This document shows, piece after piece, positions 19,187 to 36,909 of a stretch of DNA of 64,000 nt. A program made the translations under genes and the position numbers. Origin of the DNA: Pseudorhizobium banfieldiae (GTDB lineage Bacteria > Pseudomonadota > Alphaproteobacteria > Rhizobiales > Rhizobiaceae); contig NZ_FO082820.1 in NCBI RefSeq assembly GCF_000967425.1, positions 2,170,001 through 2,234,000 of the forward strand. Direction: 5' to 3'. Below the pieces are notes generated by a model, which did no database searches, had not been told where the DNA came from, and saw only the letters and a list, made by a program, of their open reading frames with translations. How positions within the stretch are numbered: position 1 is the first letter of the stretch; each line of letters opens with the position of its first letter.

Positions 19187-20659
19187 CTAGGGTATGTCGG
19201 TCTCGATGCCCATGCAGAGATATTTGATCTCCAGATAGTCGTCCAGGCCGTACTTAGACCCTTCGCGGCCGTTCCCGCTTTCCTTCACGCCGCCGAACGG
19301 TGCGACTTCAGTAGAGATGATTCCTTCGTTGATGCCGACGATGCCGTACTCGAGCGCTTCCGCCACCCGCCAAATCCGCGAGATGTCACGGCCGTAGAAA
19401 TACGCTGCCAACCCGAACTGCGTGTCGTTGGCGAGTCTGATCGCGTCGCTCTCTGTCTCGAAGCGGAAGATAGACGCGACCGGCCCGAAGATTTCTTCGT
19501 TGAAGATTTGAGACCCGGGCGGCACGTCAGCCAGAACTGTCGGTTGATAGAAGCTGTGCCCGAGGGCATGTCTCTCGCCGCCTACCAGTACCCGCCCGCC
19601 CCGCTGGACAGCGTCAGAAACCAACTCCTCAACCTTCGCTACCGCCTTCTGATCTATCAGGGGACCAATCTGAGTATCCGCCTCGAAGCCGTTTCCGACC
19701 GGCATTGCCCCGACGACTTCCGCCAGGCGTTGCACGAACCTGTCGTAAATGCCGTTCTGGACGAGGAACCGATTGGCGCAAACGCAAGTCTGTCCGGCGT
19801 TGCGGTATTTGGAGGCGACAGCCCCCTTAACAGCGGCTTCCAGATCGGCATCGTCAAAAACGATGAAGGGGGCATTTCCTCCGAGTTCCATGGATGTACG
19901 CTTAACAGTCGCTGCGCACTGGGCCATCAGAACCTTGCCGATTTCGGTCGAACCGGTGAAGCTGAGCTTTCGGACCACTGGGTTGGACGTAAGCTCGCCA
20001 CCGATCTCCGCAGCCGACCCGGTAATACAGGATAACACTCCTTTCGGAACGCCTGCCCGCTCCGCCAAAACGCATAGGGCGAGGGCGGACAGCGGCGTTT
20101 GGCTCGCGGGCTTGATCACCATGGTGCATCCAGCTGCTAGCGCCGGGCCGGCCTTGCGAGTGATCATCGCAGCGGGGAAGTTCCACGGCGTGATCGCCGC
20201 ACACACCCCGATCGGCTGCTTCAGGACAACGATACGCCTGTCGGCAGTGGGAGCCGGTATGGTGTCGCCGTAGACGCGCTTTGCCTCTTCACCAAACCAC
20301 TCGATGTAGGATGCCGCGTAAGCTATTTCTCCCTTCGCCTCAGCGAGAGGCTTGCCCTGCTCCGCGGTCATGATGGCAGCGAGATCATCCTGGTTCTCCA
20401 TCAGGAGGTCGAACCATTTTCGCAGGATTACCGCCCGTTGCTTGCCGGAAAGAGCTCTCCAGCCGGAAAGGGCCTTGCCGGCCTCTTCCAGGGCCAACCT
20501 CGTCTCGCCGGCACCCATTCGAGGAACGCTCCCGACAACCGTACCATCGGCGGGATTGGTGACTTCCAGGACTTCCCCATTGTTCGCATCTCGCCACTCA
20601 CCAGCGACGAAGCACTTGTCAGCCAGGAGCGATGGGTCTTTCAGTCTCAGAGTGGCCAT
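19187..20659 (-). CDS. gabD: NAD(P)-dependent succinate-semialdehyde dehydrogenase
   Basis: A 490-residue aldehyde dehydrogenase close to GabD throughout, for example VTNPADGTVVGSVPRMG, EQGKPLAEAKGEIAYAASYI and ITPWNFPAAMITRKAGPAL. The catalytic Cys lies in NAGQTCVCANR and the general-base Glu in SMELGGNAP. It oxidises succinate semialdehyde to succinate. It is the last gene of a seven-gene leftward operon and follows the iron alcohol dehydrogenase, a pairing also seen in the Agrobacterium blcAB genes for 4-hydroxybutyrate. It probably delivers the pathway end product to the TCA cycle. Confidence 0.92.
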   Translation of the reverse strand: MATLRLKDPSLLADKCFVAGEWRDANNGEVLEVTNPADGTVVGSVPRMGAGETRLALEEAGKALSGWRALSGKQRAVILRKWFDLLMENQDDLAAIMTAEQGKPLAEAKGEIAYAASYIEWFGEEAKRVYGDTIPAPTADRRIVVLKQPIGVCAAITPWNFPAAMITRKAGPALAAGCTMVIKPASQTPLSALALCVLAERAGVPKGVLSCITGSAAEIGGELTSNPVVRKLSFTGSTEIGKVLMAQCAATVKRTSMELGGNAPFIVFDDADLEAAVKGAVASKYRNAGQTCVCANRFLVQNGIYDRFVQRLAEVVGAMPVGNGFEADTQIGPLIDQKAVAKVEELVSDAVQRGGRVLVGGERHALGHSFYQPTVLADVPPGSQIFNEEIFGPVASIFRFETESDAIRLANDTQFGLAAYFYGRDISRIWRVAEALEYGIVGINEGIISTEVAPFGGVKESGNGREGSKYGLDDYLEIKYLCMGIETDIP

Positions 20660-20684
20660 GAAATTTTACCTCTACAGGAGTCTC

Positions 20685-21134
20685 TTAGGGCTGCGTCAGG
20701 AGGGGCTCGAGCACTCCGCGAACCTTGCCGCCGAACGGAACCGGTCGCCGCGAATAACGATCGACATTCACATGAACGAAGAAACCCTCCGCCGACGCGA
20801 TGTCTTCATCGTTCCTGAAGAGCCCGATTTCATATCGTACGGATGAGTTTCCGAGTTTGGCGACGCGTATTCCCGCGGTCACGCGATCCGGAAAAGCCAT
20901 CTCCGCGTGGTAGCGACACCCCGTCTCAACCACCAGGAACACCTCGGAGCCCCCCCGCATATCAAGCGCTCCATTCTCGATCAGAAAGGCGTTCACCGCC
21001 GTGTCGAACATGCTGTAGTGTACAACGTTGTTCATGTGCCCGTAGATATCGTTATCCGACCATCTTAGATCGATAGTGCGGAACACCTTGTAAGCAGAGC
21101 GATCTCCGGGTTTTGCTCGTTCTCCCATCACCAC
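20685..21134 (-). CDS. 4HBT-type acyl-CoA thioesterase
   Basis: A 149-residue single hot-dog fold protein. The 4-hydroxybenzoyl-CoA thioesterase pattern is seen at the N-terminus as RWSDNDIYGHMNNVVHYSMFD, with the expected catalytic Asp just before the YGHMNN helix. It hydrolyses an acyl-CoA to the free acid. It overlaps the end of the upstream alcohol dehydrogenase by 7 bases and precedes gabD by 25. In this cluster it may release an acid made by the CoA-ligase branch. Confidence 0.85.
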   Translation of the reverse strand: MVMGERAKPGDRSAYKVFRTIDLRWSDNDIYGHMNNVVHYSMFDTAVNAFLIENGALDMRGGSEVFLVVETGCRYHAEMAFPDRVTAGIRVAKLGNSSVRYEIGLFRNDEDIASAEGFFVHVNVDRYSRRPVPFGGKVRGVLEPLLTQP

Positions 21135-22288
21135 GCCGCCTTGTAAATTGCGAGGGCGTCAGCCTCGGTAACTTCGCGTGGATTGTTCACTAGCAGCCGT
21201 GTCTGTTTCATGGCGTCCCGAGCCATTGACGGCAGGTCGGCTTGGCCGATTCCGACGTCGCGGAGCCTGGACTGCAACCCGAGTTTCACCGACAGCTCAG
21301 CGAGGCCCTCGATGAAAGCAGCACATCTTCCCTGCTCTCCTTCTTCCCAGGTGATCTCTGGAAAGACGTCACCGGCAATCTCAGCGTATACAGAGCTGGC
21401 GGCAGGCGCATTGAACCGAAGGACATGCGGGAGCACAAGCGCGTTCGAAAGACCGTGCGGCACATGGAATCTCCCCCCGATCGGATAGGCCAAGGCGTGT
21501 ACTGCCGCCACGGGCGAGTTCGCGAAAGCTTGGCCAGCCAGCATCGAGCCCAAGAGCATCGCGCCGCGTGCTTCACGATCTTGTCCCTCGAATACCGCCT
21601 TCTCAATATTTGCGCCAAGAAGCAGCAGGGCTTGCCGTGCAAGCATCTTCGACAGAGGATTGTTGTTTGCGTTCGTTGACGCATATGCCTCTATCGCATG
21701 GACCATGGCGTCGATTCCCGTCGCAGCAGTTATCCCGGGTGGGAGGCCCAAGGTTAGATCGGGATCAAGAACTGCGACATCAGGCAGGATTACCGGCGAT
21801 GAGACACCACGCTTCTCGTCGCCTCCCACGGTAATGATCGAAACCGGGGTCACCTCTGACCCCGTGCCGGCCGTCGTGGGCACCAGCACCAAAGGAAGGC
21901 GGGGTCCCTTCGCGTTTCCTACGCCCCATGCCTCCTCGATCGGCTCGCCGGAACCGCATAGCAAGGCGACAACCTTGGCTACGTCAAGCGATGATCCGCC
22001 GCCAAAGCCAATAACCCCCGAGACATCTCCTGCCGTTGCGGCCGCAGCGGCGGACATGACCGTACCGATCGACGGATCGGCTTCGACTCCGTCGAAAATC
22101 GTCGTTTCGATTCCGGATGCTGACAGGGACGCGAGCGCAGGTTCGCAGAGGCCGAGCTTCCGCAACCCCGGGTCTGTCACAAAAAGCACTCGGCGACCGA
22201 GCCTTTGCCCGATCAATTCGCCGATCGCAGCTGCCGCACCCGGCCGGAATACAATCTGCGCCGTTGTACTGAAAACAAACGGATTCAT
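21128..22288 (-). CDS. Iron-containing alcohol dehydrogenase (candidate 4-hydroxybutyrate dehydrogenase)
   Basis: The 386-residue group III alcohol dehydrogenase has the nucleotide loop GFGGGSSLDVAK and the VPTTAGTGSEVT motif. Metal ligands lie in TGIDAMVHAIEAY and FHVPHGLSNALVLPH. The neighbouring succinate-semialdehyde dehydrogenase and an AttM/BlcC-like lactonase in the same gene cluster recall the blcABC set, where the homologous BlcB oxidises 4-hydroxybutyrate. Maleylacetate reductase and other alcohols remain possible. It starts 23 bases after the acyl-CoA synthetase stop. Confidence 0.85.
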   Translation of the reverse strand: MNPFVFSTTAQIVFRPGAAAAIGELIGQRLGRRVLFVTDPGLRKLGLCEPALASLSASGIETTIFDGVEADPSIGTVMSAAAAATAGDVSGVIGFGGGSSLDVAKVVALLCGSGEPIEEAWGVGNAKGPRLPLVLVPTTAGTGSEVTPVSIITVGGDEKRGVSSPVILPDVAVLDPDLTLGLPPGITAATGIDAMVHAIEAYASTNANNNPLSKMLARQALLLLGANIEKAVFEGQDREARGAMLLGSMLAGQAFANSPVAAVHALAYPIGGRFHVPHGLSNALVLPHVLRFNAPAASSVYAEIAGDVFPEITWEEGEQGRCAAFIEGLAELSVKLGLQSRLRDVGIGQADLPSMARDAMKQTRLLVNNPREVTEADALAIYKAAW

Positions 22289-22311
22289 GCGCGTCTCCTA
22301 TGCGGTCTCGT

Positions 22312-23838
22312 CTATGCGGCGGGGATGCTCTCGCGGAGCTTCACACGCAAAATCTTTCCGGAGCCGGTGCGGGGAATTTGACCGACCACGTAAATCCGGT
22401 CAGGGACCTTGTAGGTCGAAAGACGGTCCCTGCAGTGTTTGAGCAATGCATCCTGATCGAAAGGCACGCCGTCTTTCAGAACGACACAAGCAACCGGCAC
22501 TTCGCCCAGCATTGTGTGCGGCATGCCAATCACAGCACAATCCATGATGGCCGAGTTGAGAAGTATTGCCTCCTCCACTTCCGCTGGCGCGATGTTCTGT
22601 CCTCCGCGGATTATCAATTCCTTCAGCCGGCCCGTAATCGTAAGGAACCCATTCGCATCTGACTTTGCCAGGTCTCCAGTGTGATACCACCCCTCGACCA
22701 CCGCCTTCTGGGTCTCGAGAGGCTTGTTATGATAGCCCTGCATCAGGTTAGGCCCTTTGCAGATGAGTTCTCCTTCCGTCCCTGGAGGGACATCGAGCCC
22801 CGTCTTTGGATCGACCAGACGCACAGTCAGCCCAGGAAGAGGCAACCCACAGGACCCCGGCACGCGCCAACGGCCAGGCCAGTTCATCGTTACCATGGTC
22901 GATGTCTCGGTGATGCCGTACCCGTCGAGCAACGGCACCCCGAAGAACGCCTCGAAGTCACTGTTCAATGTCCCGGGCATAATCGCGCCTGCGGAAACGC
23001 ACAGCCGCACTGATGACAGTAGTTTTTCGCCGTTCGCCTGGCAGGCAGAGAGGAAGTAATGGAAGACGGTCGGGACCCCCGGCATGAAGGTGAAGCGTCC
23101 GCTTCGAAGCAGTCTCGTTGCCTCTGTCGTCGAGAACTTCTCCATGATGTATTCACTCGCACCGGTCGCGATTATGGACAGGACGGCGATATTCAGGGCA
23201 TAGGAGTGGTATAGCGGCAGCGTGTTGAGGACGACGTCATGTTCGTTCAAGCCCGCTATCGGTGCCCAACAGGCCGATGTCACCCAAAGCATCGAACGGG
23301 TGGACAACAGTACACCCTTGGGCTGCCCCGTCGTCCCGGATGTATAGACGATATACGCTGCTCGGTCGACATCGGGGTCGTCTTCCACGACACCCGGGCT
23401 GGGCCCCAGAGATTCGAAGCCGGCTGTGTCGCTCGCTTCTATGATCTTCACGGACCTTTCCAGGCGCGGTTGCAGTGCATCAACCAGCGTCCTCTTTTCC
23501 GGAACGCTGATAAGAATTGAGCACTCCGCATCGGCGAGCCGATACGCCAATTCCGCGTCGGTGGATTCGATGGCCACTGGTACGGAGACGCCTCCTGCCC
23601 TGACGACCGCCAGGCATGCGACCACCCAGTTGACCGAGTTGGGGAGGAAGACCGCGACAGCCTCCCCCTCTTTCAGGCCAGCCGCCCTTAGATGGGAGGC
23701 GAGCGCCCGCGTCTCCTCGTCAAGCCGGTTGTATGAAATGGCCCGATGCTTATCCTCAAAGGCCATCTTTTCGGGACGCACCCGCGCGTTGCGGCGGAGA
23801 ATATCGCCAACGGGCGCTATGAGATCGAAGTGTATCAT
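22312..23838 (-). CDS. Acyl-CoA synthetase (AMP-binding)
   Basis: A 508-residue ANL-family ligase from the ATG at 23838, which has a good GAGGAG ribosome site; an upstream ATG at 23880 lacks one. Motifs in order are the P-loop YTSGTTGQPKG, GYGITET, YHTGDLAK, GRLKELIIRGGQNIAPAEVE and the C-terminal catalytic Lys in GSGKILR. It activates a carboxylic acid to its CoA thioester. The gene sits between the SDR and the alcohol dehydrogenase in a tight operon. The substrate is not evident; a heterocyclic or short hydroxy acid fits the neighbours. Confidence 0.9.
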   Translation of the reverse strand: MIHFDLIAPVGDILRRNARVRPEKMAFEDKHRAISYNRLDEETRALASHLRAAGLKEGEAVAVFLPNSVNWVVACLAVVRAGGVSVPVAIESTDAELAYRLADAECSILISVPEKRTLVDALQPRLERSVKIIEASDTAGFESLGPSPGVVEDDPDVDRAAYIVYTSGTTGQPKGVLLSTRSMLWVTSACWAPIAGLNEHDVVLNTLPLYHSYALNIAVLSIIATGASEYIMEKFSTTEATRLLRSGRFTFMPGVPTVFHYFLSACQANGEKLLSSVRLCVSAGAIMPGTLNSDFEAFFGVPLLDGYGITETSTMVTMNWPGRWRVPGSCGLPLPGLTVRLVDPKTGLDVPPGTEGELICKGPNLMQGYHNKPLETQKAVVEGWYHTGDLAKSDANGFLTITGRLKELIIRGGQNIAPAEVEEAILLNSAIMDCAVIGMPHTMLGEVPVACVVLKDGVPFDQDALLKHCRDRLSTYKVPDRIYVVGQIPRTGSGKILRVKLRESIPAA

Positions 23839-23860
23839 CGCAAGCTCCTCCCCTACTCGC

Positions 23861-24616
23861 TCACACCATGCTGAAACCACCGTTGACGCTGATCACTTGA
23901 CCCGTGATCCACGACGAGGCTTCAGATGCGAGGAATGTGACCATCGGAGCAATATCGTCGGGCTTGCCGATGCGGCGAAGCGGATACGCCTTCACGATCT
24001 TCTCGCGGTTCTTCTCCAGGAACTCGGGGTCCGAATGGGAGGTCTCGACAAGGCCGAGGGACACCGTGTTGACGGTGATACTGTTTCTACCGAACTCGCG
24101 CGCCAGCGATTTTCCAAGCGCGATGGTTCCACCGCGAGCGGCAGCTGCGATTGCGAGGTTTGCCTCTCCTATTCGGGAACTATCGCCAACAAGATTGATG
24201 ATCCGGCCGGCGTTCTGACCGATCATCAGCGGTGCCACCGCGTGACAGCAGTTGATCGCACCGTAGAGGCAGACATCGATCTGCTTCCTCCACTCCTCGG
24301 GGGTCGATTCGGTGAACCTCTGGTACTTTACGTAGCCAGCGTTGTTGACCAGCACATCGATCGTGCCGAAGTCTTCCTTAACAGCAGCAACCATGGCTTT
24401 AACTTGGTCATTGACGCTGATGTCAGCCTGATAGGCTTTTGCCCTACCGCCCTTGGCGACGATGGACTCGACAACACTGTCGGCCTCGGCTTTCGAGCGG
24501 CTGTAGTTGACGGCTACGACAGCGCCCTCTGCGGCGAGCGAACGAGCTATATCACCGCCGACGTCGCGGCCACCGCCCGTTACAAGCGCTACCTTGCCAT
24601 TCAGATTGGTTTGCAT
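23861..24616 (-). CDS. SDR-fold protein lacking the usual catalytic triad
   Basis: A 251-residue short-chain dehydrogenase fold with cofactor loop LVTGGGRDVGG and NNAG motif at 91–94. It resembles BadH/FabG-like members over its length and ends GQVISVNGGF. Aligned without gaps, the catalytic Ser, Tyr and Lys positions are Gly144, Ala157 and Arg161 (segment NLVGDSSRIGEANLAIAAAA, then R). The standard oxidoreductase mechanism therefore looks absent. The start at 24616 has an AGGAG site; the longer reading from 24667 does not improve the fold. It may have a changed or non-catalytic role in this pathway. Confidence 0.82.
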   Translation of the reverse strand: MQTNLNGKVALVTGGGRDVGGDIARSLAAEGAVVAVNYSRSKAEADSVVESIVAKGGRAKAYQADISVNDQVKAMVAAVKEDFGTIDVLVNNAGYVKYQRFTESTPEEWRKQIDVCLYGAINCCHAVAPLMIGQNAGRIINLVGDSSRIGEANLAIAAAARGGTIALGKSLAREFGRNSITVNTVSLGLVETSHSDPEFLEKNREKIVKAYPLRRIGKPDDIAPMVTFLASEASSWITGQVISVNGGFSMV

Positions 24617-24676
24617 TCCATGTCTCCTATTGGAACGTGCTGCCAGCGTCGCGAACGTGTTCAGCACTCGAATTCT

Positions 24677-25444
24677 TTATCGACCGAGAAACCGTGGGGG
24701 GCGCTTCTCGCTGAAGGCTCTTCGCCCCTCAGCGTAGTCCTGACTCCCGCTCGCTTCGTCGATCAGCCGGTCCGCTTCGGCCGGGTCGAAATTGCCTCTG
24801 ACGCATCCGTTCAGAATGTATTTCGCTCCCCGGATCGTCAGGGGAGCGCTAGGGGCCATGGAAGCCGCTTGTTCCTTGGCCGCCTGTAAAGCGTCATCCG
24901 TCAACTGGTCGACAAAGCCATTCCCGAGGGCGTCTTCGGCTCCGAAACGTTGGGCGGTGTAGAGGATTCGTTTTGCCTCCGTCACTCCGACGAGTGAAAG
25001 CAGCTTCCGCGTTGCGGAAACCCCGTAGACGATCGACAGCCGGGCCGCCGGAATGCCGAACACTGCGCTGTGCTCCGCTACTCGAAAGTCGCAAGACATT
25101 GCGAGGTGCGCAGCGCCGCCAAGGCAATAGCCACGGATAGCCGCGATAGTGGGCTTGGAAACGCTAAAGATCGCGTCTCCAGCTGCATCTACGGCAACTT
25201 CGTAATGTTTGCTCGCGTCAGCGCTACCTCTAATCGCGTCGAACTCGCTGATGTCCGCGCCGGCAGAGAAATCCGTGCCGGCTCCCGTGAGGATAATCGA
25301 ACGAACGTCTTGGTCGGCGTCGAGGTCTTGAAAAAGCTCTGCCAGCCCGCGCCACATGTCGTAGGTGACAGCGTTGCGTTGCTTCGGTTTGTTGAGGGTG
25401 ACGACAGCTACGCCGTCTGATCGTTCAAGCAGAAGATCGCTCAT
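24677..25444 (-). CDS. Enoyl-CoA hydratase/isomerase-family protein lacking both catalytic glutamates
   Basis: A 255-residue crotonase-fold protein. The oxyanion-hole segments are present (SAGADISEF and RGYCLGGAAHLAM). Against rat enoyl-CoA hydratase, Glu144 aligns with His113 and Glu164 with Ala133 (FGIPAARLS). Simple hydratase chemistry is therefore unlikely. Crotonase members with other residues act as CoA-thioester hydrolases, decarboxylases or C–C hydrolases. It lies second in the leftward operon, after the binding protein and before the SDR. A CoA-thioester hydrolase role, as proposed for HmfE in furoate pathways, is one inference. Confidence 0.87.
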   Translation of the reverse strand: MSDLLLERSDGVAVVTLNKPKQRNAVTYDMWRGLAELFQDLDADQDVRSIILTGAGTDFSAGADISEFDAIRGSADASKHYEVAVDAAGDAIFSVSKPTIAAIRGYCLGGAAHLAMSCDFRVAEHSAVFGIPAARLSIVYGVSATRKLLSLVGVTEAKRILYTAQRFGAEDALGNGFVDQLTDDALQAAKEQAASMAPSAPLTIRGAKYILNGCVRGNFDPAEADRLIDEASGSQDYAEGRRAFSEKRPPRFLGR

Positions 25445-25527
25445 GTGGTCCGTCTTTGCTCCTGGCCCGTCGCCAGTTGATGGGGCAGTTCAAGGGTGCC
25501 CGGCGTCGCCGCCGGGCATTGGTCGGC

Positions 25528-26736
25528 TCACTTCTTGACTAGGGGGCATTCGCTCTCGGAGAGGGGGCGGAATGCCTCGTCTCCTGGGATCGTTGTGACG
25601 AGCTTCAGCAGGTCCCACTCGCCCTTGGACTCCTCAGGTGTCTTGACTTGATACACATACATGTCGTGGACCATCCGCCCGTCTTCGCGAATTTTGCCGC
25701 CCGTCGCAAAGAAGTCATTGATTGGCGTCTCTTTCATCTTCGCCATGACCTCCTTCGCGTCAGTCGTACCTGCCGCCTCGACGGATTTCAGGTAGTGCAT
25801 CGTGGACGAATAATCCCCGGCGTCTCCCATGTGAGGGGGGCGACCGACCCGCTCCTGAAACTTCTTGGCGAAAGCGCGCGTCTCGTCATCACGGTCCCAG
25901 TAGAATGCGTTGGTGAGGATCATCCCCTGAGCCGTCTCCAGTCCCAGCGCATGGACGTCGGTGGCCCACACCAGCAGACCTGCGACCGTCTTGCCAGACG
26001 CTGCGAGACCGAATTCAGAAGCGGACTTGACCGCATTGACGAAGGTCGTGCCGGAACCCGCCAATGCGACAACCTCCGCAGGCGAAGCCTGGGCCTGCAA
26101 CATAAACGCGCTATGGTCAGAGGTCTCGATCGGATATCGGACCGAGCCTGAGACGGTCCCACCATTAGCCTTTACGATCTGGCTTGCGTCCGCTTCCAAT
26201 GCATGTCCGAACGCGTAGTCGGCGGTCAGAAAGTACCAGTCCTTCTTGCCCTCGCGGATCAGCTCATTCGCAGTACCATTCGCGAGCGCGTAGGTATCAT
26301 AGGAATAATGGATTGAGTTCGGCGTGCAGCTGTCGTTGGTCAGGCGCGACGAACCCGAGCCATTCACGATGGCGATCTTGTCCTCGTCCTTCGCCACCTG
26401 AGTCACCGCAAGCGCTATTCCCGAGTTGATCAGGTTGTTGATCATGGTGACGCCTTGCGACTCGTACCACTCTCGAGCCGTGGAAACGGCGACCTCTGGC
26501 TTGTTCTGATGATCCGCGACAACCACCTCCAGAGGACGGCCAAGAACCTTTCCGCCGAAATCTTCGACGGCCATCTTGACGGCGGCGACTGCCCCCTCTC
26601 CGCTTTCATGCGAGAACTGACCGCTGATATCGGTGAGAACACCGATCTTTACCGGCCCTGACTCCTGCGCCTGCAAGGGCATACCTACCGATGCAAACGC
26701 TGCCGCGCAGGACAACAAGACTCTCAGATTTCTCAT
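25528..26736 (-). CDS. Branched-chain-type ABC transporter substrate-binding protein
   Basis: The start at 26736 (MRNLRVLLSCAAAFASVGMPLQAQ) gives a signal peptide and a 402-residue protein. A longer reading from 26775 only adds a charged stretch. The mature part, VKIGVLTDISGQFSHESGEGAVAAVKMAVEDFGG, is a type I periplasmic binding fold of the LivK/aromatic-acid type. It heads the leftward catabolic operon and is divergent from the matching livGFHM genes, 257 bases away. Proteins of this group often bind aromatic or heterocyclic acids rather than amino acids. That fits the context. Confidence 0.88.
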   Translation of the reverse strand: MRNLRVLLSCAAAFASVGMPLQAQESGPVKIGVLTDISGQFSHESGEGAVAAVKMAVEDFGGKVLGRPLEVVVADHQNKPEVAVSTAREWYESQGVTMINNLINSGIALAVTQVAKDEDKIAIVNGSGSSRLTNDSCTPNSIHYSYDTYALANGTANELIREGKKDWYFLTADYAFGHALEADASQIVKANGGTVSGSVRYPIETSDHSAFMLQAQASPAEVVALAGSGTTFVNAVKSASEFGLAASGKTVAGLLVWATDVHALGLETAQGMILTNAFYWDRDDETRAFAKKFQERVGRPPHMGDAGDYSSTMHYLKSVEAAGTTDAKEVMAKMKETPINDFFATGGKIREDGRMVHDMYVYQVKTPEESKGEWDLLKLVTTIPGDEAFRPLSESECPLVKK

Positions 26737-26888
26737 GGCTTTCTTCTCCCAGTTACGGCGTCGAGGCTCCTCCACAACGCCAATAGCACTTGCGCTATCG
26801 TACCTTGATGCGGTGAAATAAGACGATCATATTGCGCCACAACAGTTACTGTGCCGCAAGGAAAGCAGAAATTATCAAACTACGCAAG

Positions 26889-28452: not shown

Positions 28453-28486
28453 CCGTGGCACACACACTTCAACAGGTAGAAATCCA

Positions 28487-29374: not shown

Positions 29375-29375
29375 T

Positions 29376-30347
29376 ATGAATATGACAGCCCTTTCCTCCT
29401 CTCTGCCGAAGTCCAACCTGGCGCGGTCTATTGGTCTCGCCCTGCTGATACTGGTCGCGTCGATTCTGCTGCTCGCACCTCTGCTCACGTATCCGCTGTA
29501 CCTGATCAAGATTCTCTGCTTCGTTCTCTTCGCCGCCGCATTCAATCTTGTGCTCGGATACGCCGGCTTGCTTTCTTTTGGCCACGCAGCCTTTTTCGGA
29601 GGGGGCGCATACATCGCCGCCCATGCGGCGAAGGTCTGGCAGTTGCCCTTCGAACTCGCGATTCTCGCTGGCACCGCGTTTGCGACGATCGTCGGCTTCA
29701 TTTTTGGAGCGATCGCGATCCGCCGGCACGGCATCTATTTCGCGATGATCACGCTGGCCCTTGCGCAGATGATTTACTTTCTCGCAGTCCAGATGCCCTT
29801 CACCGGCGGCGAGGATGGCATCCAGAGCGTGCCTCGGGGCTACCTATTGGGAATCGTCAACCTCGAAAACATAACTGCGATGTACTACACCGTACTCGGC
29901 GGCACAGCCCTCGGCCTGGTGATCATCTGGCGCACCGTCAACTCACCCTTCGGTCATACTCTTTCAGCAATCCGAGAGAATGAGACGCGAGTAATCTCGT
30001 TGGGTTTGAAGCCAGAGCGCTACAAACTGATCGCCTTCACCCTGTCGGCTGCGCTTTCGGGCTTCGCCGGCTCAATGAAAGCGATAGCCTTTCAACTGGC
30101 TTCGCTCGTGGACGTGACTTGGCACATGTCGGGTGAAGTCATCTTGATGACGCTCCTCGGTGGCATGGGTACCCTTATCGGACCCATCGTCGGAGCAACC
30201 GTCGTTGTCGGCCTCGAACACTTCCTCGCAACGAGTGGCCTGCCGATCACGTTCATAATCGGCCTTTTCTTCGTCGTCTGCGTCATGATGTTCAGACGTG
30301 GTGTCTTTGGAGAATTGAAGCACTTCCTCCAGCGAGGTCAGGCGTAG
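29376..30347 (+). CDS. livM: Branched-chain-type ABC transporter permease (LivM-like)
   Basis: A 323-residue LivM-type permease with about nine membrane helices, the segment NLVLGYAGLLSFGHAAFFGGGAY and the coupling loop IRENETRVISLGLKPERYKL. It follows livH with one base between. A strong terminator 25 bases after the stop closes this transport operon. Overall the four genes and the divergent binding protein make a complete importer. Confidence 0.92.
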   Translation: MNMTALSSSLPKSNLARSIGLALLILVASILLLAPLLTYPLYLIKILCFVLFAAAFNLVLGYAGLLSFGHAAFFGGGAYIAAHAAKVWQLPFELAILAGTAFATIVGFIFGAIAIRRHGIYFAMITLALAQMIYFLAVQMPFTGGEDGIQSVPRGYLLGIVNLENITAMYYTVLGGTALGLVIIWRTVNSPFGHTLSAIRENETRVISLGLKPERYKLIAFTLSAALSGFAGSMKAIAFQLASLVDVTWHMSGEVILMTLLGGMGTLIGPIVGATVVVGLEHFLATSGLPITFIIGLFFVVCVMMFRRGVFGELKHFLQRGQA

Positions 30348-30371
30348 ATAAGTCTTGTTATGCAAGCATGG

Positions 30372-30397: not shown

Positions 30398-30411
30398 CGT
30401 CCAACAGCAGA

Positions 30412-31200
30412 CTATCTCGACCTTGCGCCGAACAAGTAACCGATTGCCGCGGCCATCGCCAAGAGCGCTACAGTCGTCAAATCTGGAGATACCCCGTCTA
30501 GGACGCTGCTTTCGGACGTTAGGGTCGGGGAGATCAGGCTGTAAGCCGCCAAGGCCGCCAGCACCGACACAAAGACTATAAGGGACAGCATAGGCAAGGA
30601 TGCTGTCCCACGAGTATCCGCAATTAGGCTTCCGCCAGATGGGCCGGAAGAAGGCGCGGCGGGTGCCGCGGGACGCGCAGGCTCCGTCGCGCCACCATGT
30701 TGCGCTGTAACTTGAATCGAGCCGTCCTGCTTCTGGCTGCCTGAGGCCGGCAAAGCCTTGCGGGCTTGAATCTCCTCAGAGAACTTGGCGAAGAAATGCC
30801 CCGCCATCTGTTTGGCGGTAACATCGATAAGCCTCCCGCCCAACTGGGAGAGCTTGCCCCCGATCTGCGCGGCGACGCTGTAGTGCAGCATGGTTCCATC
30901 ATCCACGGCCTCCAGCTTCACGGTTGCGTCGCCCTTCGCGAAGCCGGCGACACCGCCCTGTCCTTCTCCGCTTATCTTGTACCCGTGAGGTGGGTCGAGG
31001 TCGGACAGCGTTACATTGCCCTGAAACCTTGCCTTGACTGGACCAACCCTCATGACGGCCACCGCGGACATCTCAGTATCCGAAATTTTCACCAGTTCCT
31101 GGCAACCAGGGATACAGAGCTTCAACACCTCGGGATCGTTGAGCGCGGCCCAGACCTCTTCCTTTGTTGCCGGGATCATCTGCTGGCCCGTCATTTCCAT
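30412..31200 (-). CDS. CoxG-like SRPBCC protein with C-terminal membrane segments
   Basis: From the ATG at 31200, which has a GGAG ribosome site, this is 262 residues. Residues 1–150 are a CoxG/SRPBCC domain (IPATKEEVWAALNDPEVLKLCIPGC and VTAKQMAGHFFAKF). A Pro/Ala/Gly-rich linker follows, then two hydrophobic helices near the C-terminus (LPMLSLIVFVSVLAALAAYSL and a last one ending GYLFGARSR). CoxG proteins tether molybdenum hydroxylases of the CO-dehydrogenase type to the inner membrane. It is divergent from the hydroxylase genes and shares their promoter region with the 18-bp motif. Confidence 0.87.
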   Translation of the reverse strand: MEMTGQQMIPATKEEVWAALNDPEVLKLCIPGCQELVKISDTEMSAVAVMRVGPVKARFQGNVTLSDLDPPHGYKISGEGQGGVAGFAKGDATVKLEAVDDGTMLHYSVAAQIGGKLSQLGGRLIDVTAKQMAGHFFAKFSEEIQARKALPASGSQKQDGSIQVTAQHGGATEPARPAAPAAPSSGPSGGSLIADTRGTASLPMLSLIVFVSVLAALAAYSLISPTLTSESSVLDGVSPDLTTVALLAMAAAIGYLFGARSR

Positions 31201-31257
31201 TGATTCTCTCCTCACCTATGTCCCTTTGCGACTGACACCAAGCCGCACACTGGTCAC

Positions 31258-31290: not shown

Positions 31291-31386
31291 TGAATTTTGG
31301 AGCATCTCGAAGAGATGGCAGCCGAAGCGCCTTGATAACAGGGCTGTTGATGGCAAGGTCTCCGATGCGATGGGATAAATGGCACG

Positions 31387-32274
31387 ATGAAGCCGGCGCA
31401 ATTCGATTATGCAGTCCCTACAACGGTCGAGGAAGCAGCGCGGCTGCTTGCGGAATCGAACGGCGACGGCAAGATCATTGCCGGCGGCCAAAGCCTCATG
31501 CCCATGATCAACTTCCGCCTTGTAAAGCCGTCGATCCTCATCGACGTGAATCGGATCGCAGGCCTCAACCGCATAGAGCTAGTCGGGAAGCGGGTAAGGA
31601 TTGGTGCGACCGTCCGCCATCATCAGACAGCCTCTGATCCATTGATCGCCAAGCATCTGCCGGTGGTCCATGATGCCATGCAACATGTCGCACATGTCAC
31701 GGTCCGCAACCGAGGCACCTTCTGCGGCAGCGTCGCCCATGCCGACCCGGCAGCCGAAATGCCGATGGTGACACGGTTCTTGGACGGAACAATCATCGCC
31801 TTGTCGATACGGGGCGAGCGACGTATCCCAGCGGCCGACTTTTTCGTGGGTTCTTTGGTCAACAGTCTCGAGCCGGATGAAATGGTGCTCGCAGTGGAGA
31901 TCGACGTGATGCCCGATGAAGCCGGTTGGGGCTTCGAAGAATTCGCCAAGCGTCACGGAGACTTTGCATTGGCCGCCTTTGCCGCCACACTCCGGATGGA
32001 TAACGGACGTGCACGAGACGTCCGTATCGGGATGATGGGCGTCGGCGAAGTACCTCTGCGTCTTCCTGAGGTCGAAGAGATTCTCGAGGAGACGCAGTTG
32101 ACTCAAGGAGTGCTCCAAGCGGTCGCTGAAAAGCTCAACGACATCTTGACGCCGAATACCGATATCCACGCCTCCGCTGACTATCGCAGGCATTTGTCGG
32201 GCGTTCTCGCGAAGAGAGCGCTCCGCTCCGCCTGGGTTAGAGCGGGCGGTAGAAATGAGGCGACCAATGGTTGA
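31387..32274 (+). CDS. Molybdenum hydroxylase FAD-binding (medium) subunit, CoxM-like
   Basis: A 295-residue FAD subunit of the xanthine dehydrogenase/CO dehydrogenase family. The FAD motifs are seen as IIAGGQSLMPMINFRL near residue 35 and NRGTFCGSVAHADPAAEMP near residue 110. It starts MKPAQFDYAVPTTVEEA, which is typical. It carries electrons between the 2Fe-2S subunit and the acceptor. The end overlaps the next gene by 20 bases or 8 bases depending on the start chosen. Confidence 0.92.
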   Translation: MKPAQFDYAVPTTVEEAARLLAESNGDGKIIAGGQSLMPMINFRLVKPSILIDVNRIAGLNRIELVGKRVRIGATVRHHQTASDPLIAKHLPVVHDAMQHVAHVTVRNRGTFCGSVAHADPAAEMPMVTRFLDGTIIALSIRGERRIPAADFFVGSLVNSLEPDEMVLAVEIDVMPDEAGWGFEEFAKRHGDFALAAFAATLRMDNGRARDVRIGMMGVGEVPLRLPEVEEILEETQLTQGVLQAVAEKLNDILTPNTDIHASADYRRHLSGVLAKRALRSAWVRAGGRNEATNG

Positions 32275-32746
32275 GAAAACAATTACTGTGGGCGTCAACG
32301 GGATATCCTACACCCGCACCGTCGAACCGCGGATGCTTCTTAGCGATTTCCTGCGTCAAGAACTGACCCTTACCGGAACGCATGTCGGCTGCGAACATGG
32401 AGTGTGCGGTGCCTGCACCGTACTTCTGGACGGTCGAAGCGCGCGCTCGTGTCTGACTCTTGCGGTCCAAGTCGATGGCTTGGAGATTGAAACCATCGAA
32501 GGTCAGGGGGAGATCGACTGCCTGGGCAGGGTCCAGGAGGCCTTCCGCCAGCATCATGGGCTCCAGTGCGGCTTCTGCACGCCCGGTTTCATCATGGCAG
32601 TCACGGACCTTCTCCGGCATCACCCGCTCGAATCGGACGAGCAGATACGGGAAGCCCTCTCGGGCAACATCTGCCGCTGCACGGGATATGAGAACATAGT
32701 CAATGCTGTTCGCGAACTGGCACGGGAAAGAGGACCTCTCACATGA
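32255..32746 (+). CDS. Molybdenum hydroxylase iron-sulfur (small) subunit, CoxS-like
   Basis: A 163-residue (159 from the alternative ATG at 32267) two-cluster ferredoxin-like subunit. The plant-type 2Fe-2S ligands lie in GCEHGVCGACTVLLDG and, after 20 residues, ARSC. The second cluster lies in QCGFCTPGFIM and GNICRCTGYENIV. All eight expected cysteines are present. It overlaps the medium-subunit gene upstream and the lactonase gene downstream, so the three are tightly coupled. Confidence 0.93.
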   Translation: MRRPMVEKTITVGVNGISYTRTVEPRMLLSDFLRQELTLTGTHVGCEHGVCGACTVLLDGRSARSCLTLAVQVDGLEIETIEGQGEIDCLGRVQEAFRQHHGLQCGFCTPGFIMAVTDLLRHHPLESDEQIREALSGNICRCTGYENIVNAVRELARERGPLT

Positions 32747-33504
32747 AAATGCACTTCCTCGAAGGTGGCCGGCTGCGCATGCGACGGTCGATCTATGTCG
32801 CAGGAGCGCCAAAGGAAGAGTCGATCGAGCTTCCTGTGCACGCTACTCTGTTACGCCACCCGCAAGGAAACGTACTCTTCGATAGCGGCTGCAATCCCGA
32901 AGCCGCTATCGATCCCCAAGCGCGTTGGGGAGGATTGAGCAAAGTCATGACGCCGGCGTTCGAGCCGGATCAAACCGTCATTCATCAGCTTAACCACGTG
33001 GGTTTGACATCAGATGATGTTGACGTTGTCATCTGTTCGCACCTCCATCCTGACCACTGCGGATGTAACGCCTACTTTGTCAAAGCCACCATCATCTGTC
33101 ATGAGGCCGAGCTTCAAGCGGCACGGACTGAAGGTGCCGTTAGCGCGGGCTATCTTCCCCGCGAATGGGATCAGCCGCAGGGGTTTCAGACATTCGCCAC
33201 CGAGCATGATCTTTTTGACGACGGCAGGATCGTGATCATCCCGATGCCGGGGCACACTCCGGGGATGAGCGTCGCCAGAATTGAGCTGGACCGTGACGGC
33301 GCTTTCGTACTCGCGTCTGATGCCGCCCCTCTGCAGGAGAATATCGACAGTGGCATTGCGCCCAAGAATACCTGGAACATGGAGCTCGCCGGATTGGCCC
33401 TCAAGCGTCTGAAATCCATGCGCGACAGCGGCGACACTGTTATTTCAGGGCACGATGACGCTCAGTGGAAGGGCCTTCGGAAAGGATCGGAATTCTACGA
33501 ATGA
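32743..33504 (+). CDS. AttM/BlcC-like metallo-beta-lactamase-fold lactonase
   Basis: A 253-residue MBL-fold hydrolase with the metal box SHLHPDHCG, MPGHTPGM and the C-terminal GHDDAQWKG. The fold order and local words (DPQARWGG, SHLHPDH, the ending GSEFYE) resemble Agrobacterium AttM/BlcC and AiiB, which open gamma-butyrolactone and N-acyl homoserine lactones. It is placed between hydroxylase subunit genes, overlapping both neighbours by 4 bases. Opening of a lactone made by the hydroxylase is therefore the simplest inference. Quorum-signal cleavage as a side activity is possible. No signal peptide. Confidence 0.85.
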   Translation: MKMHFLEGGRLRMRRSIYVAGAPKEESIELPVHATLLRHPQGNVLFDSGCNPEAAIDPQARWGGLSKVMTPAFEPDQTVIHQLNHVGLTSDDVDVVICSHLHPDHCGCNAYFVKATIICHEAELQAARTEGAVSAGYLPREWDQPQGFQTFATEHDLFDDGRIVIIPMPGHTPGMSVARIELDRDGAFVLASDAAPLQENIDSGIAPKNTWNMELAGLALKRLKSMRDSGDTVISGHDDAQWKGLRKGSEFYE

Positions 33505-35900
33505 CCGATCACCAACATCCTGCCGAACTCCGACCGAAAATGGTCGGGACCCGCGTCAAACGTACTGAGGACCCACGCCTTCTTGCAGGCATGGGGCAAT
33601 ACGTTGACGACATATCTCCCGCCGGAACCTTGCATGTAGCACTCAGGCGTTCCGACCAGCCGCATGCTCGGATACTGAACATTGATGTCGGCGAAGCGTT
33701 CTCAGTCCCCGGGGTCGTAGCCATCTATGACATCAGTGACATCGAAGGCGAGATCAAGCCGGCGATCCCGACATCCCGCATGCCCGGCTATTACGCCACT
33801 CCCAATTGGCCCCTAGCGCGAGGAAAAGTACGATACGTTGGCGAACCCGTTGTTGCGGTCGTCGCTGAGAGCCGGTACGCCGCCGAGGATGCCCTTGAGC
33901 ACATAAACATCCAGTACGACCCGTTGCCTTTCGCCATCCGGCAGGTCGACGCAGTCAAGGATGATGCGCCGTTACTCCACGAAGAGGCCGGAACGAACAC
34001 CATAATTCGCCGCGAGTTCAAGCGAGGCGATGTTGATGCCGCCTTCGAGGAGGCTGCCGTTATTGTGAAGGGCCGCTTCAGGATGACCCGCAAGACCGCA
34101 GTCCCGATGGAGAACCGTTCCTACTTGGCCCAATGGGACGGCAGAAAGCAGTCGCTGACCCTCCACACGTCGTCGGGCAGCCCGGGCATCATACGCGACG
34201 TACTATCAGGTTGCCTGGATTTGCCCGGAACACGCTTGCGGGTTGTCGCACCCGACGTCGGTGGCAGCTTTGGCGCTAAAGGGTCGTTGTACCCCGAAGA
34301 GATGCTGGTCTGCGTCCTGGCGCGAAAGCTGAAACGTCCAGTGAAGTTCGTCAGCGATCGTCTGGAGGACCTATCTGCCACAAGCCAGGCCTTCGACGAA
34401 CTGATCGAAGCGGAATTGGCTGTCACAAGCGAGGGGCTGCTCATCGGGCTCAAAGCAGACGTGATCGGCGACGTGGGTGCGTACTCCATATATCCATGGA
34501 CCGCCGCACTGGAAACCGTACAGGTCGTCAGCTTCCTCCCTGGTCCATACCGGATGGAACACTACAGGGGCCGGATCAGGGGTGTCCTCACTCCCAAGCC
34601 GCCCACGGGTCCCTATAGGGGAGTTGGCCGTCCCTCCTCCACCTTTGCCATGGAACGGCTTGTCGAAATGGCGGCGCGCGAGTTGAACATGGACCCCGTC
34701 GAGTTCCGGCGAAGAAATTTGGTGCGGGCGGAAGAATTCCCTTACCGGACGGCTTCGGGGATCATCTGGGACAAGTCCGCATTCCAAGAGTGTTTGGAAG
34801 GCGCTTGCGAGAAAGCCGATTACGCGGACCTGGTTCGCCAGAGAGACGCGGCACGAAGCGAAGGCCGTTGGGTGGGCATCGGACTGGCAAGCTACGCGGA
34901 ATTGACGGGTATAGGCTCACGCATATCGGTCGCGCCCGGCATGCCCATCAACACCGGGACAGAAACTTCGAAGATCGAGATAGACGCAACCGGCGCGATT
35001 ACAGCATCTTTCGGGATTTCGTCACATGGCCAAGGCTTGGAGACGACCCTTGCACAGGTGATCGTCGATGAGCTTGGCTGTAAGTTGGAGGACATCCAGG
35101 TAAGACACGGTGACAGCGCACTCGTACCAATGTCCAGCGGCACCTACGCCAGTCGCTCGGCAGTGCTAGGAGGTGGCGCGGCCACGCTCGCCGCACGGGT
35201 TGTTAAAGGCAAGGTGTTACGGGCAGCGGCCTTTCTCATGGAGCAGAGCGTCGATGATCTGGATATCCGCGACGGTATCATTGCGAGCCGCCAGTCCAAT
35301 CTAACGATGACGCTCAAGGAAGTCGCCTCAGCTGTGTATACTCAAATGGGGCGCATCCCACGCGAGCAACGCGAAGACCTCACCGCATCGGAAACCTACG
35401 ATCCTTACCTGGGGACGGCTTGCTCATCCACGCATCTGGCGATGGTGGAGATCGATCCGGAGACCTACGGTGTTGAAATACGCCGCTATGTCGTGGCAGA
35501 GGACTGCGGCAAGATCATAAATCCCATGATCGTGGACGGGCAAGTACATGGAGCTGTAGCGCAAGGCATCGGTGCCGCGCTGCTCGAGGAGATCGTTCAC
35601 GACGACAATGGACAGGCAGTGGCTGCCAGCCTTGCAGATTATCTTGTACCTGTCGCAGGCACCGTACCAAACATCGGCATCGTACACATAGAGGCCGACT
35701 TGCCCAACAACGTTGGCGGCTTCCGGGGAATGGGTGAAGGCGGAACAATCGGGGCTCCAGCAGCTATTGCCAACGCAGTATCTGATGCCTTGGCCCATCT
35801 TGGCGTCTCAGTCGAGACCCTGCCCATTACGCCCGAGCGGATATTCCAGTTGCTGCGCGACAAGGCACTAGCAGGTCAGCCGGTCAAGACGCCGGCGTAG
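33501..35900 (+). CDS. Molybdenum hydroxylase large (Mo-cofactor) subunit, CoxL form II-like
   Basis: From the ATG at 33501, overlapping the lactonase stop, this is 799 residues. An upstream start at 33465 would lie within the lactonase gene. VGTRVKRTEDPRLLAG opens the family domain. The active-site loop near residue 371 reads PYRGVGRP, as in form II or other hydroxylases; true CO dehydrogenases have AYRCSFR. The catalytic Glu lies near residue 746 in GMGEGGTIGAPAAIANA. It hydroxylates a carbon next to a heteroatom or aldehyde using water. CO oxidation is not supported. Confidence 0.92.
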   Translation: MTDHQHPAELRPKMVGTRVKRTEDPRLLAGMGQYVDDISPAGTLHVALRRSDQPHARILNIDVGEAFSVPGVVAIYDISDIEGEIKPAIPTSRMPGYYATPNWPLARGKVRYVGEPVVAVVAESRYAAEDALEHINIQYDPLPFAIRQVDAVKDDAPLLHEEAGTNTIIRREFKRGDVDAAFEEAAVIVKGRFRMTRKTAVPMENRSYLAQWDGRKQSLTLHTSSGSPGIIRDVLSGCLDLPGTRLRVVAPDVGGSFGAKGSLYPEEMLVCVLARKLKRPVKFVSDRLEDLSATSQAFDELIEAELAVTSEGLLIGLKADVIGDVGAYSIYPWTAALETVQVVSFLPGPYRMEHYRGRIRGVLTPKPPTGPYRGVGRPSSTFAMERLVEMAARELNMDPVEFRRRNLVRAEEFPYRTASGIIWDKSAFQECLEGACEKADYADLVRQRDAARSEGRWVGIGLASYAELTGIGSRISVAPGMPINTGTETSKIEIDATGAITASFGISSHGQGLETTLAQVIVDELGCKLEDIQVRHGDSALVPMSSGTYASRSAVLGGGAATLAARVVKGKVLRAAAFLMEQSVDDLDIRDGIIASRQSNLTMTLKEVASAVYTQMGRIPREQREDLTASETYDPYLGTACSSTHLAMVEIDPETYGVEIRRYVVAEDCGKIINPMIVDGQVHGAVAQGIGAALLEEIVHDDNGQAVAASLADYLVPVAGTVPNIGIVHIEADLPNNVGGFRGMGEGGTIGAPAAIANAVSDALAHLGVSVETLPITPERIFQLLRDKALAGQPVKTPA

Positions 35901-35928
35901 CACTCCAAGCGAACGCGCCGGCCTCGCA

Positions 35929-36909
35929 TCAAAGGTCAAACGGGTACCTAAGCTTGTAGTCGGTGTCCTTGGCCGAGATCGGCTTCTTGCATTCGGAGCA
36001 GACGACGACGGCAGAGAAATCATTGCCGCACTTCTTGTGCCGAAGGCGCATCGGGGGCTTGCCATTTGCCAACCAGCGGTCGCCCCAAGCCATCATGACC
36101 AGCATCGGCTTGTAGAGATCGAGTCCCATTTCCGTGAAGCGATACTCGAAACGGTCCCCACTACCATATGGCGTCTTGCGAAAAACGCCTGCCTGAACGA
36201 GCCGTGCAAGCCGATCGGAGAGGATGTTGGTCGCGATTCCAAGGTTCTCGCGCATTTCCTCGTATCGGCGGACGCCGTTCCAACCCTCTCGAAGAATAAG
36301 GAAACTCCAGCGATCCCCGATGATCGCAAGGGTCCGCGCAACGGAGCAGGGCCTCACTCTTTCAAGCAACGCAGGGTCAGAACTCCTTCGGGATGTGGGC
36401 CTGGTCTCAACGGGTGTGTACCCAGCTCCCGGACCATCACGAGGCGCAACCTCCCTCGCCGTGAAAGGTTCGAGGCATTCGCTGCACACAGTCACCGGCC
36501 GACAGCTGCATCCGCAGGTCTTGTGAAGCAGTTGCAGTGGCGGCTCATTATCGCCGGCGAGCCACTTGTCTCCGAATTCCATCAAAGACAGCATCGTCGG
36601 GAACAGGTCCTTTCCACGTTCAGTAAGAAAGTACTGTTGCCCCGGCTCTTTCGGCCTTTTTCCTAACGCCAGAATTTCATTTGATAGCAGTGACGCCAGT
36701 CTTGATGACAGGGTCTGCCGAGGGATGCCAAGGCGCTGCTGGAACTTGTCGAACCTCCGGACACCAAAGTACGCCTCTCGAAGGATCAAGAAGTTCCACG
36801 TGTCCAGGACAATTTCCATTGTCCTGCGTACCGATGACTGCCGCTCCATCAAAGGCTTCGGCTGGATAGACTGGGTCGACAATATATGCTTGCTCAGGTC
36901 CAAATGCAT
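35929..36909 (-). CDS. Transcription regulator with two fused HxlR domains
   Basis: The 326-residue protein contains two HxlR winged-helix domains in tandem. The first is at about residues 27–115 (IVLDTWNFLILREAYFGVRR, RQTLSSRLASL). The second is at about 185–275 (IIGDRWSFLILREGWNGVRR, TNILSDRLARL). Each is followed by a metal-ribbon-like tail with a C..CG...C..C pattern (HKTCG ... VCSEC and HKKCG ... VCSEC). HxlR proteins are normally single domains of about 110–130 residues that dimerise, so this fusion may be an intrinsic dimer. It closes the catabolic cluster and is its only regulator. Confidence 0.9.
   Translation of the reverse strand: MHLDLSKHILSTQSIQPKPLMERQSSVRRTMEIVLDTWNFLILREAYFGVRRFDKFQQRLGIPRQTLSSRLASLLSNEILALGKRPKEPGQQYFLTERGKDLFPTMLSLMEFGDKWLAGDNEPPLQLLHKTCGCSCRPVTVCSECLEPFTAREVAPRDGPGAGYTPVETRPTSRRSSDPALLERVRPCSVARTLAIIGDRWSFLILREGWNGVRRYEEMRENLGIATNILSDRLARLVQAGVFRKTPYGSGDRFEYRFTEMGLDLYKPMLVMMAWGDRWLANGKPPMRLRHKKCGNDFSAVVVCSECKKPISAKDTDYKLRYPFDL

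Follow-up and report, generated by a model that had tools for sequence, protein, structure and literature searches.

A genomic island of Pseudorhizobium banfieldiae carries a recurrent gene cluster proposed to open a furan carboxylic acid toward 4-hydroxybutyryl-CoA

Introduction

What does a gene cluster do in which an importer, a molybdenum (Mo) hydroxylase, a lactonase, a coenzyme A (CoA) ligase and a succinate-semialdehyde dehydrogenase stand side by side? Such a cluster occupies positions 19187-36909 of a 64-kb window (the whole stretch of DNA that was analysed, positions 2,170,001 to 2,234,000 of contig NZ_FO082820.1) from the 4.58-Mb genome of Pseudorhizobium banfieldiae. Present annotation scatters genes of this kind as 'carbon monoxide dehydrogenase', 'N-acyl homoserine lactonase' and 'enoyl-CoA hydratase'. 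We propose that 4-hydroxybutyrate/4-hydroxybutyryl-CoA is the node where the core pathway ends, which we regard as likely, and that the cluster catabolises a furan carboxylic acid, most likely 3-furoate, for which we see about an even chance. The two would be connected by an undescribed aerobic ring-opening route for beta-substituted furans, with a CoA ester throughout, that passes through a butenolide, ene reduction, lactonase opening and alkylmalonyl-CoA decarboxylation; this chemistry is put forward tentatively, at somewhat less than even chances.

Gene content of the cluster

Open reading frames (ORFs) and profile searches together define 17 intact genes in the cluster. An earlier note on this DNA had listed its genes correctly as intact ORFs of the families that profile searches now assign, and its list needs amendment only in detail: the lactonase gene falls within the cox operon, the start of LivH is more likely at 28487, and the regulator, which we infer to control the cluster, contains two HxlR stretches. 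The genes are as follows.

19187-20659, minus strand: GabD, succinate-semialdehyde dehydrogenase (NCBIfam NF008415, 831.6 bits, cut-off 828; 64% identity to BlcA)
20685-21134, minus strand: 4HBT-type thioesterase, proposed from its context to act on 4-hydroxybutyryl-CoA (Pfam 4HBT_2/4HBT)
21128-22288, minus strand: iron-type alcohol dehydrogenase (Fe-ADH), proposed 4-hydroxybutyrate dehydrogenase (Pfam; 56% identity to BlcB)
22312-23880, minus strand: AMP-forming acyl-CoA ligase, proposed furoyl-CoA synthetase with a presumed substrate (Pfam AMP-binding; PDB relatives)
23861-24667, likely start 24616, minus strand: short-chain dehydrogenase/reductase (SDR) without the Ser-Tyr-Lys triad, proposed ene-reductase of a CoA-bound butenolide
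24677-25444, minus strand: crotonase without both hydratase Glu residues (His113, Ala133; Tyr140), proposed malonyl-type decarboxylase
25528-26775, minus strand: periplasmic binding protein of the importer (Pfam Peripla_BP_6, 352 bits; PDB 3i09, 417 bits)
26994-27752, plus strand: LivG-type ATP-binding cassette (ABC) ATPase (profile match)
27745-28452, plus strand: LivF-type ABC ATPase (profile match)
28487-29374, plus strand: LivH-type permease, start picked within ORF 28334-29374 (Pfam BPD_transp_2)
29376-30347, plus strand: LivM-type permease (Pfam BPD_transp_2)
30412-31215, minus strand: CoxG-like protein (Pfam COXG)
31387-32274, plus strand: CoxM, flavin adenine dinucleotide subunit of the Mo hydroxylase (profile matches)
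32255-32746, plus strand: CoxS, 2Fe-2S subunit (profile matches)
32743-33504, plus strand: metallo-beta-lactamase-fold lactonase of the N-acyl homoserine lactone (AHL) lactonase group (Pfam Lactamase_B; AHL lactonases of the PDB, at most 113 bits)
33501-35900, plus strand: CoxL, Mo-binding large subunit with the loop PYRGVGRP (profiles; best solved relative quinoline 2-oxidoreductase, 543 bits)
35929-36909, minus strand: tandem HxlR-type regulator (Pfam HxlR, two stretches)

Conservation and distribution of the gene set

Do these genes belong to one pathway? The strongest sign that they do is their constant content in reshuffled order. Sought in other genomes, as the earlier note had advised, the gene set was found again in other families, often reordered and far beyond chance. 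We tallied 64 loci at fixed identity thresholds. Ligase, CoxL, lactonase and SDR, hereafter the core, occur together in 48 of them, and 44 of these 48 also carry the crotonase. Whole-cluster DNA, the lactonase, the crotonase or CoxL served to find the loci, a selection that favours those genes; absences are weak evidence, as most fetched stretches span about 20 kb. Outside the tally stand 20 genome-contig loci (four of which apparently appear in it again), the crotonase loci found at the level of the class, and loci L087 and L088 from Sphingobium and Cupriavidus. The same holds for the relics L033, L037, L038 and L039, the short contigs L102, L103 and L107, two loci that were not extended (L040 and L041), weak matches to the lactonase (L048-L053), 8 of 47 lactonase match rows from the family of G1300 and the plasmid matches that were not fetched.

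Carriers belong mainly to the Hyphomicrobiales, and their gene order is often reshuffled. All 17 genes occur in identical order on plasmids of Sinorhizobium meliloti MABNR56, Agrobacterium tumefaciens HAMBI 105 and CFBP7129, Agrobacterium salinitolerans and Rhizobium gallicum; in Sinorhizobium chiapasense, GabD is the only one missing from the stretch seen. Other gene orders are found in Aminobacter and further lineages, including G564 (same class, another order). At the level of single genes, sampled genomes of the genus contain CoxL in 5 of 57 cases (own genome included), and those of the family contain the lactonase in 11 of 297 (E-value 1e-40; own genome and three relic carriers included). 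The lactonase is also found in 9 of 398 sampled genomes of the phylum (1e-30), four of which, the own genome among them and two being relics, reach 58% identity. Searches with the Bradyrhizobium lactonase gave 13 of 397 sampled genomes of the order (1e-70; own genome and three relics included) and, in the family to which G1300 belongs, 42 of 296; from this family 38 loci were fetched, 25 with the core set. The crotonase occurs in 20 of 337 sampled genomes of the class, the own genome included (1e-60).

Two observations on the crotonase count against the proposed pathway. Most of its class-level relatives (42-52% identity) have no cluster genes in their short loci, and since only one other such locus has adjoining cox genes, the family extends beyond the pathway. 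In addition, the fetched stretches of 4 of the 48 core loci contain no crotonase; one of them is G1384, which is among the dehydratase-bearing loci described below.

Plasmid p42d of Rhizobium etli CFN 42 (L033) and loci L037-L039 are relics with a full-length lactonase, partial coxM/coxS and coxL fragments, which suggests that the pathway decayed there while the lactonase was kept. The plasmid matches listed are mostly from Rhizobium sym plasmids, and the one examined, L033, has truncated cox genes. Five plasmid loci (L009, L011, L012, L034 and L035) carry an XdhC-type maturation factor and an adenylate-kinase-like gene beside gabD, with a MocA-like gene in three. These extras are absent from the window, and elsewhere in its genome XdhC has only weaker matches.

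The Mo hydroxylase and the lactonase

The operon order is coxM-coxS-lactonase-coxL, and the lactonase and coxL genes overlap by 4 nt if coxL begins at the ATG at 33501, probably its start, rather than at 33465. The position of the lactonase gene between coxS and coxL suggests that the product of the Mo hydroxylase is a lactone, directly or one step removed. The lactonase retains the HxHxDH metal motif as HLHPDHCG, invariant across four aligned sequences. It had been described as AttM/BlcC-type; it belongs to the AHL-lactonase group, but scores under the AttM/AiiA family cut-offs (144.3 vs 390 for the AttM model; 99.3 vs 375) and shares just 29% identity with BlcC.

Does the Mo enzyme oxidise carbon monoxide, as its CoxMSL and CoxG annotations would imply? 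The active-site loop of a CO-type carbon monoxide dehydrogenase (CODH) carries Cys. The cluster CoxL has PYRGVGRP instead, a loop found in 44 of the 45 ORFs longer than 650 aa that bear the GxGEGG motif in the tallied loci, and it scores below both listed CODH models (605.8 vs cut-off 950; 492.3 vs cut-off 991). CO oxidation, against which the loop had already been cited, was rejected on these two grounds. An aerobic CODH thus appears highly improbable, and so does an unrelated patchwork of genes, given a set conserved in reshuffled orders. The best NCBIfam models for CoxL, CoxM and CoxS are the subunits of an aldehyde-oxidising Mo enzyme, each matched under its cut-off. Among solved structures, the closest CoxL relative is quinoline 2-oxidoreductase, an enzyme that hydroxylates beside the ring heteroatom.

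A crotonase and an SDR without their classical catalytic residues

In the crotonase, His replaces the first hydratase Glu and Ala the second in all rows of two alignments (9 of 9 in A2, 12 of 12 in A3); a further alignment has His together with Ala or Ser at these positions in 8 of 8 cluster rows. These substitutions support the view that the enzyme has lost hydratase chemistry. We propose that it acts as a malonyl-type decarboxylase: among five Escherichia coli crotonases, Tyr140 is shared with methylmalonyl-CoA decarboxylase (ScpB) alone, and there is no second Glu. Several observations count against this proposal. The crotonase is 26% identical to methylmalonyl-CoA decarboxylase vs 33% to CaiD, the decarboxylase retains Glu where the cluster protein has His, and the Tyr also occurs in structure 4olq. 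Moreover, methylmalonyl-CoA decarboxylase is absent by title from the 50 listed of 1903 Foldseek matches to the crotonase model, a model (pLDDT, the predicted local distance difference test, 77; below 50 at residues 133-139) that does not discriminate functions.

At the three triad positions of the SDR, all 15 relatives aligned depart from the classical pattern: Ser is replaced by Gly, Tyr by one of Ala, Gly, Val and Thr, and Lys by Arg. An ordinary alcohol dehydrogenase function is therefore unlikely. SDR-fold dienoyl-CoA reductases likewise lack the classical Tyr, and by analogy with them we propose that the SDR reduces a C=C bond. With an SDR devoid of the triad and a crotonase devoid of both hydratase Glu residues, ordinary beta-oxidation fits the cluster poorly. 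Plain beta-oxidation was rejected on these residues and on profile searches of the span, which contains neither a thiolase nor an acyl-CoA dehydrogenase.

Proposed pathway and substrate

How could these enzymes act in sequence? We infer the substrate, the step order and the reactions of the SDR, the crotonase and the thioesterase. The acid would be imported via the binding protein and LivGFHM and converted by the CoA ligase to 3-furoyl-CoA. CoxMSL would then hydroxylate C2, next to the ring oxygen, to give 2-hydroxy-3-furoyl-CoA, that is, the butenolide 2-oxo-2,5-dihydrofuran-3-carbonyl-CoA. AHL lactonases open lactones that this alpha,beta-unsaturated butenolide resembles only once it has been reduced, and the triad-less SDR would convert its C=C bond, yielding a gamma-butyrolactone with an alpha CoA thioester. 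The AHL-lactonase-like enzyme would open the lactone to 2-(2-hydroxyethyl)malonyl-CoA, which the Glu-less crotonase would decarboxylate to 4-hydroxybutyryl-CoA. Finally, the thioesterase, Fe-ADH and GabD would lead from 4-hydroxybutyryl-CoA via 4-hydroxybutyrate and succinate semialdehyde to succinate. After reduction of the butenolide, the far carbon is left at the alcohol level, which would explain an Fe-ADH ahead of GabD.

Atom bookkeeping connects these steps to a formula. Suppose that the ligase forms a CoA ester, that the Mo enzyme introduces an oxygen from water with loss of 2H, that the SDR contributes 2H, that water enters at the lactonase step and CO2 leaves at the crotonase step, and that the end product is 4-hydroxybutyryl-CoA. 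Then, for the free acid of that product, S + 2 H2O - 2H + 2H - CO2 = C4H8O3, so that the substrate S is C5H4O3, the formula of furoic acid. The weakness of this calculation is that it rests on the assumed SDR and crotonase reactions; other assignments lead to other formulas. Hydroxylation at C2 turns that carbon into a carboxyl group geminal to the thioester; once this group is lost, HO-CH2-CH2-CH2-CO-SCoA is left. A straight chain is thus obtained only from 3-furoate, whereas 2-furoate would, by the same steps, lead to C5 dicarboxylates. The general idea of the earlier note, in which a furan-type or lactone-forming acid is imported, activated with CoA, hydroxylated, ring-opened and converted to succinate, fits these results, with 3-furoate indicated over 2-furoate.

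The skeleton argument bears directly on an Hmf-type 2-furoate pathway, which would proceed by ligation, Mo hydroxylation at C5 and lactone opening to 2-oxoglutaryl-CoA and 2-oxoglutarate, with the extra genes serving otherwise. HmfE has a crotonase fold. The first enzymes are of like kind, namely the HmfD ligase and the HmfABC Mo hydroxylase, and HmfE is proposed as a 2-oxoglutaroyl-CoA thioesterase/hydrolase (PMC6678421 and PMC12064950). However, the 2-furoyl skeleton cannot yield the straight 4-hydroxybutyryl chain via the steps above, and an Hmf-type pathway has no need of Fe-ADH, GabD or the 4-hydroxybutyryl-CoA dehydratase, which are found with many loci. We consider it unlikely.

Instead, the 4-hydroxybutyryl-CoA node might be reached from another ring acid, for example a furan with substituents, a furylacrylate whose side chain is shortened by beta-oxidation, or some other O-heterocycle. 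Three loci, in S. meliloti MABNR56, A. tumefaciens CFBP7129 and G564, have next to or within the cluster a module of a ligase and a BktB thiolase, together with a gene for a FadB-type or 3-hydroxyacyl-CoA dehydrogenase, and this module could shorten a furyl-alkenoic side chain. In variant loci, the lactonase and SDR stand with a different Mo enzyme, about 41% identical. The 64-kb window, in contrast, lacks the ligase-BktB extras, and the bookkeeping of the core set gives C5H4O3. We consider a different ring acid improbable, though less so than the Hmf-type pathway. A MarR gene also accompanies the thiolase module where seen. The variant loci, L166, L169, L183 and L188, probably represent a sister pathway with another substrate; two of them, L169 and L188, encode PadR regulators along with a TPR protein.

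4-Hydroxybutyryl-CoA as the probable end of the core pathway

BlcA and BlcB oxidise 4-hydroxybutyrate to succinate. GabD and Fe-ADH of the cluster are, over nearly their full length, 64% and 56% identical to BlcA and BlcB from the plasmid of Agrobacterium fabrum C58, an orthology judged by identity. GabD also exceeds its curated cut-off (831.6 vs 828). Fe-ADH was found in 27 of the tallied loci, accompanied by the thioesterase in 27 of 27 and by GabD in 23 of 27.

A second exit points to the same intermediate. The Bradyrhizobium elkanii plasmid locus L086 has the core set, and the thioesterase, Fe-ADH and GabD do not reach threshold there. One of its proteins, annotated as 4-hydroxyphenylacetate hydroxylase, scores 797 bits against 6vjr, a vinylacetyl-CoA delta-isomerase, and 574 bits against 1u8v, a dehydratase/isomerase of gamma-aminobutyrate metabolism; from these matches we read it as a putative 4-hydroxybutyryl-CoA dehydratase. 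Five of 38 further loci carry this dehydratase at 61-84% identity to the L086 protein. With 0.004 taken as the rate per locus, at least 5 of 38 would arise by chance with a probability of 4.6e-7, a figure that assumes one random copy per 5-Mb genome and independent loci, which the loci are not fully. In 5 of the 6 dehydratase loci, Fe-ADH and GabD are absent from the fetched stretch; one of the six, G1419, also has the thioesterase. An uncontrolled search of the window's own genome gave no dehydratase match. In relatives with the dehydratase (one also with the Fe-ADH/GabD exit), 4-hydroxybutyryl-CoA would be converted to crotonyl-CoA. The dehydratase loci and the Blc-like exit genes together make 4-hydroxybutyryl-CoA the likely node.

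Not all observations agree with this node. Fe-ADH scores well under the cut-off of the curated 4-hydroxybutyrate dehydrogenase (CUPNE) model (241.8 vs 500). Dehydratase locus G1481 has both exits, G1522 combines the dehydratase with a different Mo enzyme (41%) while its ligase and crotonase do not reach threshold, and the stretch of G1639 contains no CoxL, so that G1522 and G1639 fall outside the core definition in their stretches. Fe-ADH or the dehydratase is present in 30 of the 48 core loci; the remaining 18 show neither at the thresholds in the fetched stretch, and for this reason we lowered our confidence in the node slightly, from high to fairly high.

The same evidence bears on a lactol/butyrolactone route, in which an acid such as 4-hydroxy-2-methylenebutanoate would be activated, hydrated, oxidised, released and decarboxylated to 4-hydroxybutanal/2-hydroxytetrahydrofuran, the Mo enzyme would produce gamma-butyrolactone, and Blc-like steps would follow. 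Such a route uses each enzyme gene once, ends in a Blc-like exit and agrees with the aldehyde-oxidising type of the best, sub-cut-off NCBIfam models for CoxL/M/S. It requires, however, a hydratase and an alcohol dehydrogenase where the crotonase lacks both Glu residues and the SDR lacks its triad, and it loses CoA early, which is ill-suited to a 4-hydroxybutyryl-CoA dehydratase in related loci. A lactol route is thus doubtful, to much the same degree as the Hmf-type pathway, and the specific route from 4-hydroxy-2-methylenebutanoate was given up on the crotonase residues and the dehydratase loci.

Genomic setting

The cluster had been called island-borne, and the surrounding sequence agrees.

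15880-51584: integrative island of 35.7 kb, flanked by identical 47-nt direct repeats matching part of tRNA-Met
16091-17440, plus strand: tyrosine integrase adjoining the left repeat (Pfam Arm-DNA-bind_3, 46.7 bits; Phage_integrase, 27.5 bits, cut-off 27.1)

The repeats lie at 15880-15926 and 51538-51584, the second within the tRNA-Met gene (51538-51613, minus strand). The direct repeats derived from the tRNA and the tyrosine integrase next to them mark this as an integrative island at a tRNA gene, and the G+C content is 0.582 within the island vs 0.621 and 0.634 in the window flanks.

The island holds further genes past the HxlR regulator. An ATP-dependent DNA ligase-domain gene and an SRAP-family gene (36997-39600) are followed by an IS21-type pair, a Mu-transposase-like gene and IstB (41300-43670, plus strand). 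A DRT-group reverse transcriptase (43855-45210, plus strand; PADLOC RT_UG20, 644 bits, profile positions 70-511 of 511) is a candidate anti-phage gene. Beside it stands a DUF6602 protein (46166-47041, plus strand) weakly similar to PD-(D/E)xK (62 bits) and NucC-type (29-35 bits) nucleases, and an AAA ATPase with M41-peptidase similarity (PADLOC IetA, 89 bits) adjoins a calcineurin-like phosphoesterase (47585-50324, minus strand).

Significance and comparison with known systems

If the proposed pathway is correct, catabolism by this route would be common among soil and plant-associated bacteria, several unassigned subfamilies would receive functions, and three enzyme groups would gain new reactions. 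In that case the lactonases at these loci need not be quorum-quenching, and some so annotated would be catabolic. Ring-opening furan-acid pathways with a Mo hydroxylase are already known; the present gene set with a 4-hydroxybutyrate exit is apparently undescribed. Our searches covered the open literature, with subscription papers and preprints outside their scope, and returned no description of this gene set or of 3-furoate catabolism, in keeping with the earlier note, which knew of no described cluster of this composition. PMC10870720 names 3-furoic acid once, as a product from lignin.

The hmfABCDE system of Cupriavidus basilensis HMF14 and Pseudomonas, compared here by enzyme kind, likewise has a CoA ligase, a three-subunit Mo hydroxylase acting on furoyl-CoA, a hydrolase and a lactone intermediate; it differs in ending in 2-oxoglutarate (PMC6678421 and PMC12064950). 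The lactone step has no assigned gene in one of these papers and just a putative hydrolase in the other. Unlike hmf, the cluster has a dedicated lactonase, a triad-less SDR, a thioesterase, Fe-ADH, GabD, a Liv importer and HxlR, and some relatives have the dehydratase.

A resemblance to blcABC (attKLM) of A. fabrum C58 had also been noted, and it holds for GabD, Fe-ADH and the presence of an AHL-lactonase-group hydrolase. It does not extend to the lactonase sequence, given the low identity to BlcC, or to regulation, where the cluster has HxlR in place of the IclR-type BlcR, and the blc stretch seen contains neither a Mo hydroxylase nor a CoA ligase. Routes through 4-hydroxybutyryl-CoA dehydratase (AbfD) share that enzyme with the six related loci, which implies the same CoA intermediate, whereas the window has the thioesterase, Fe-ADH and GabD instead. 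Finally, quinoline 2-oxidoreductase is the best solved relative of CoxL by sequence, and the cluster differs from it in an operon that includes a lactonase gene.

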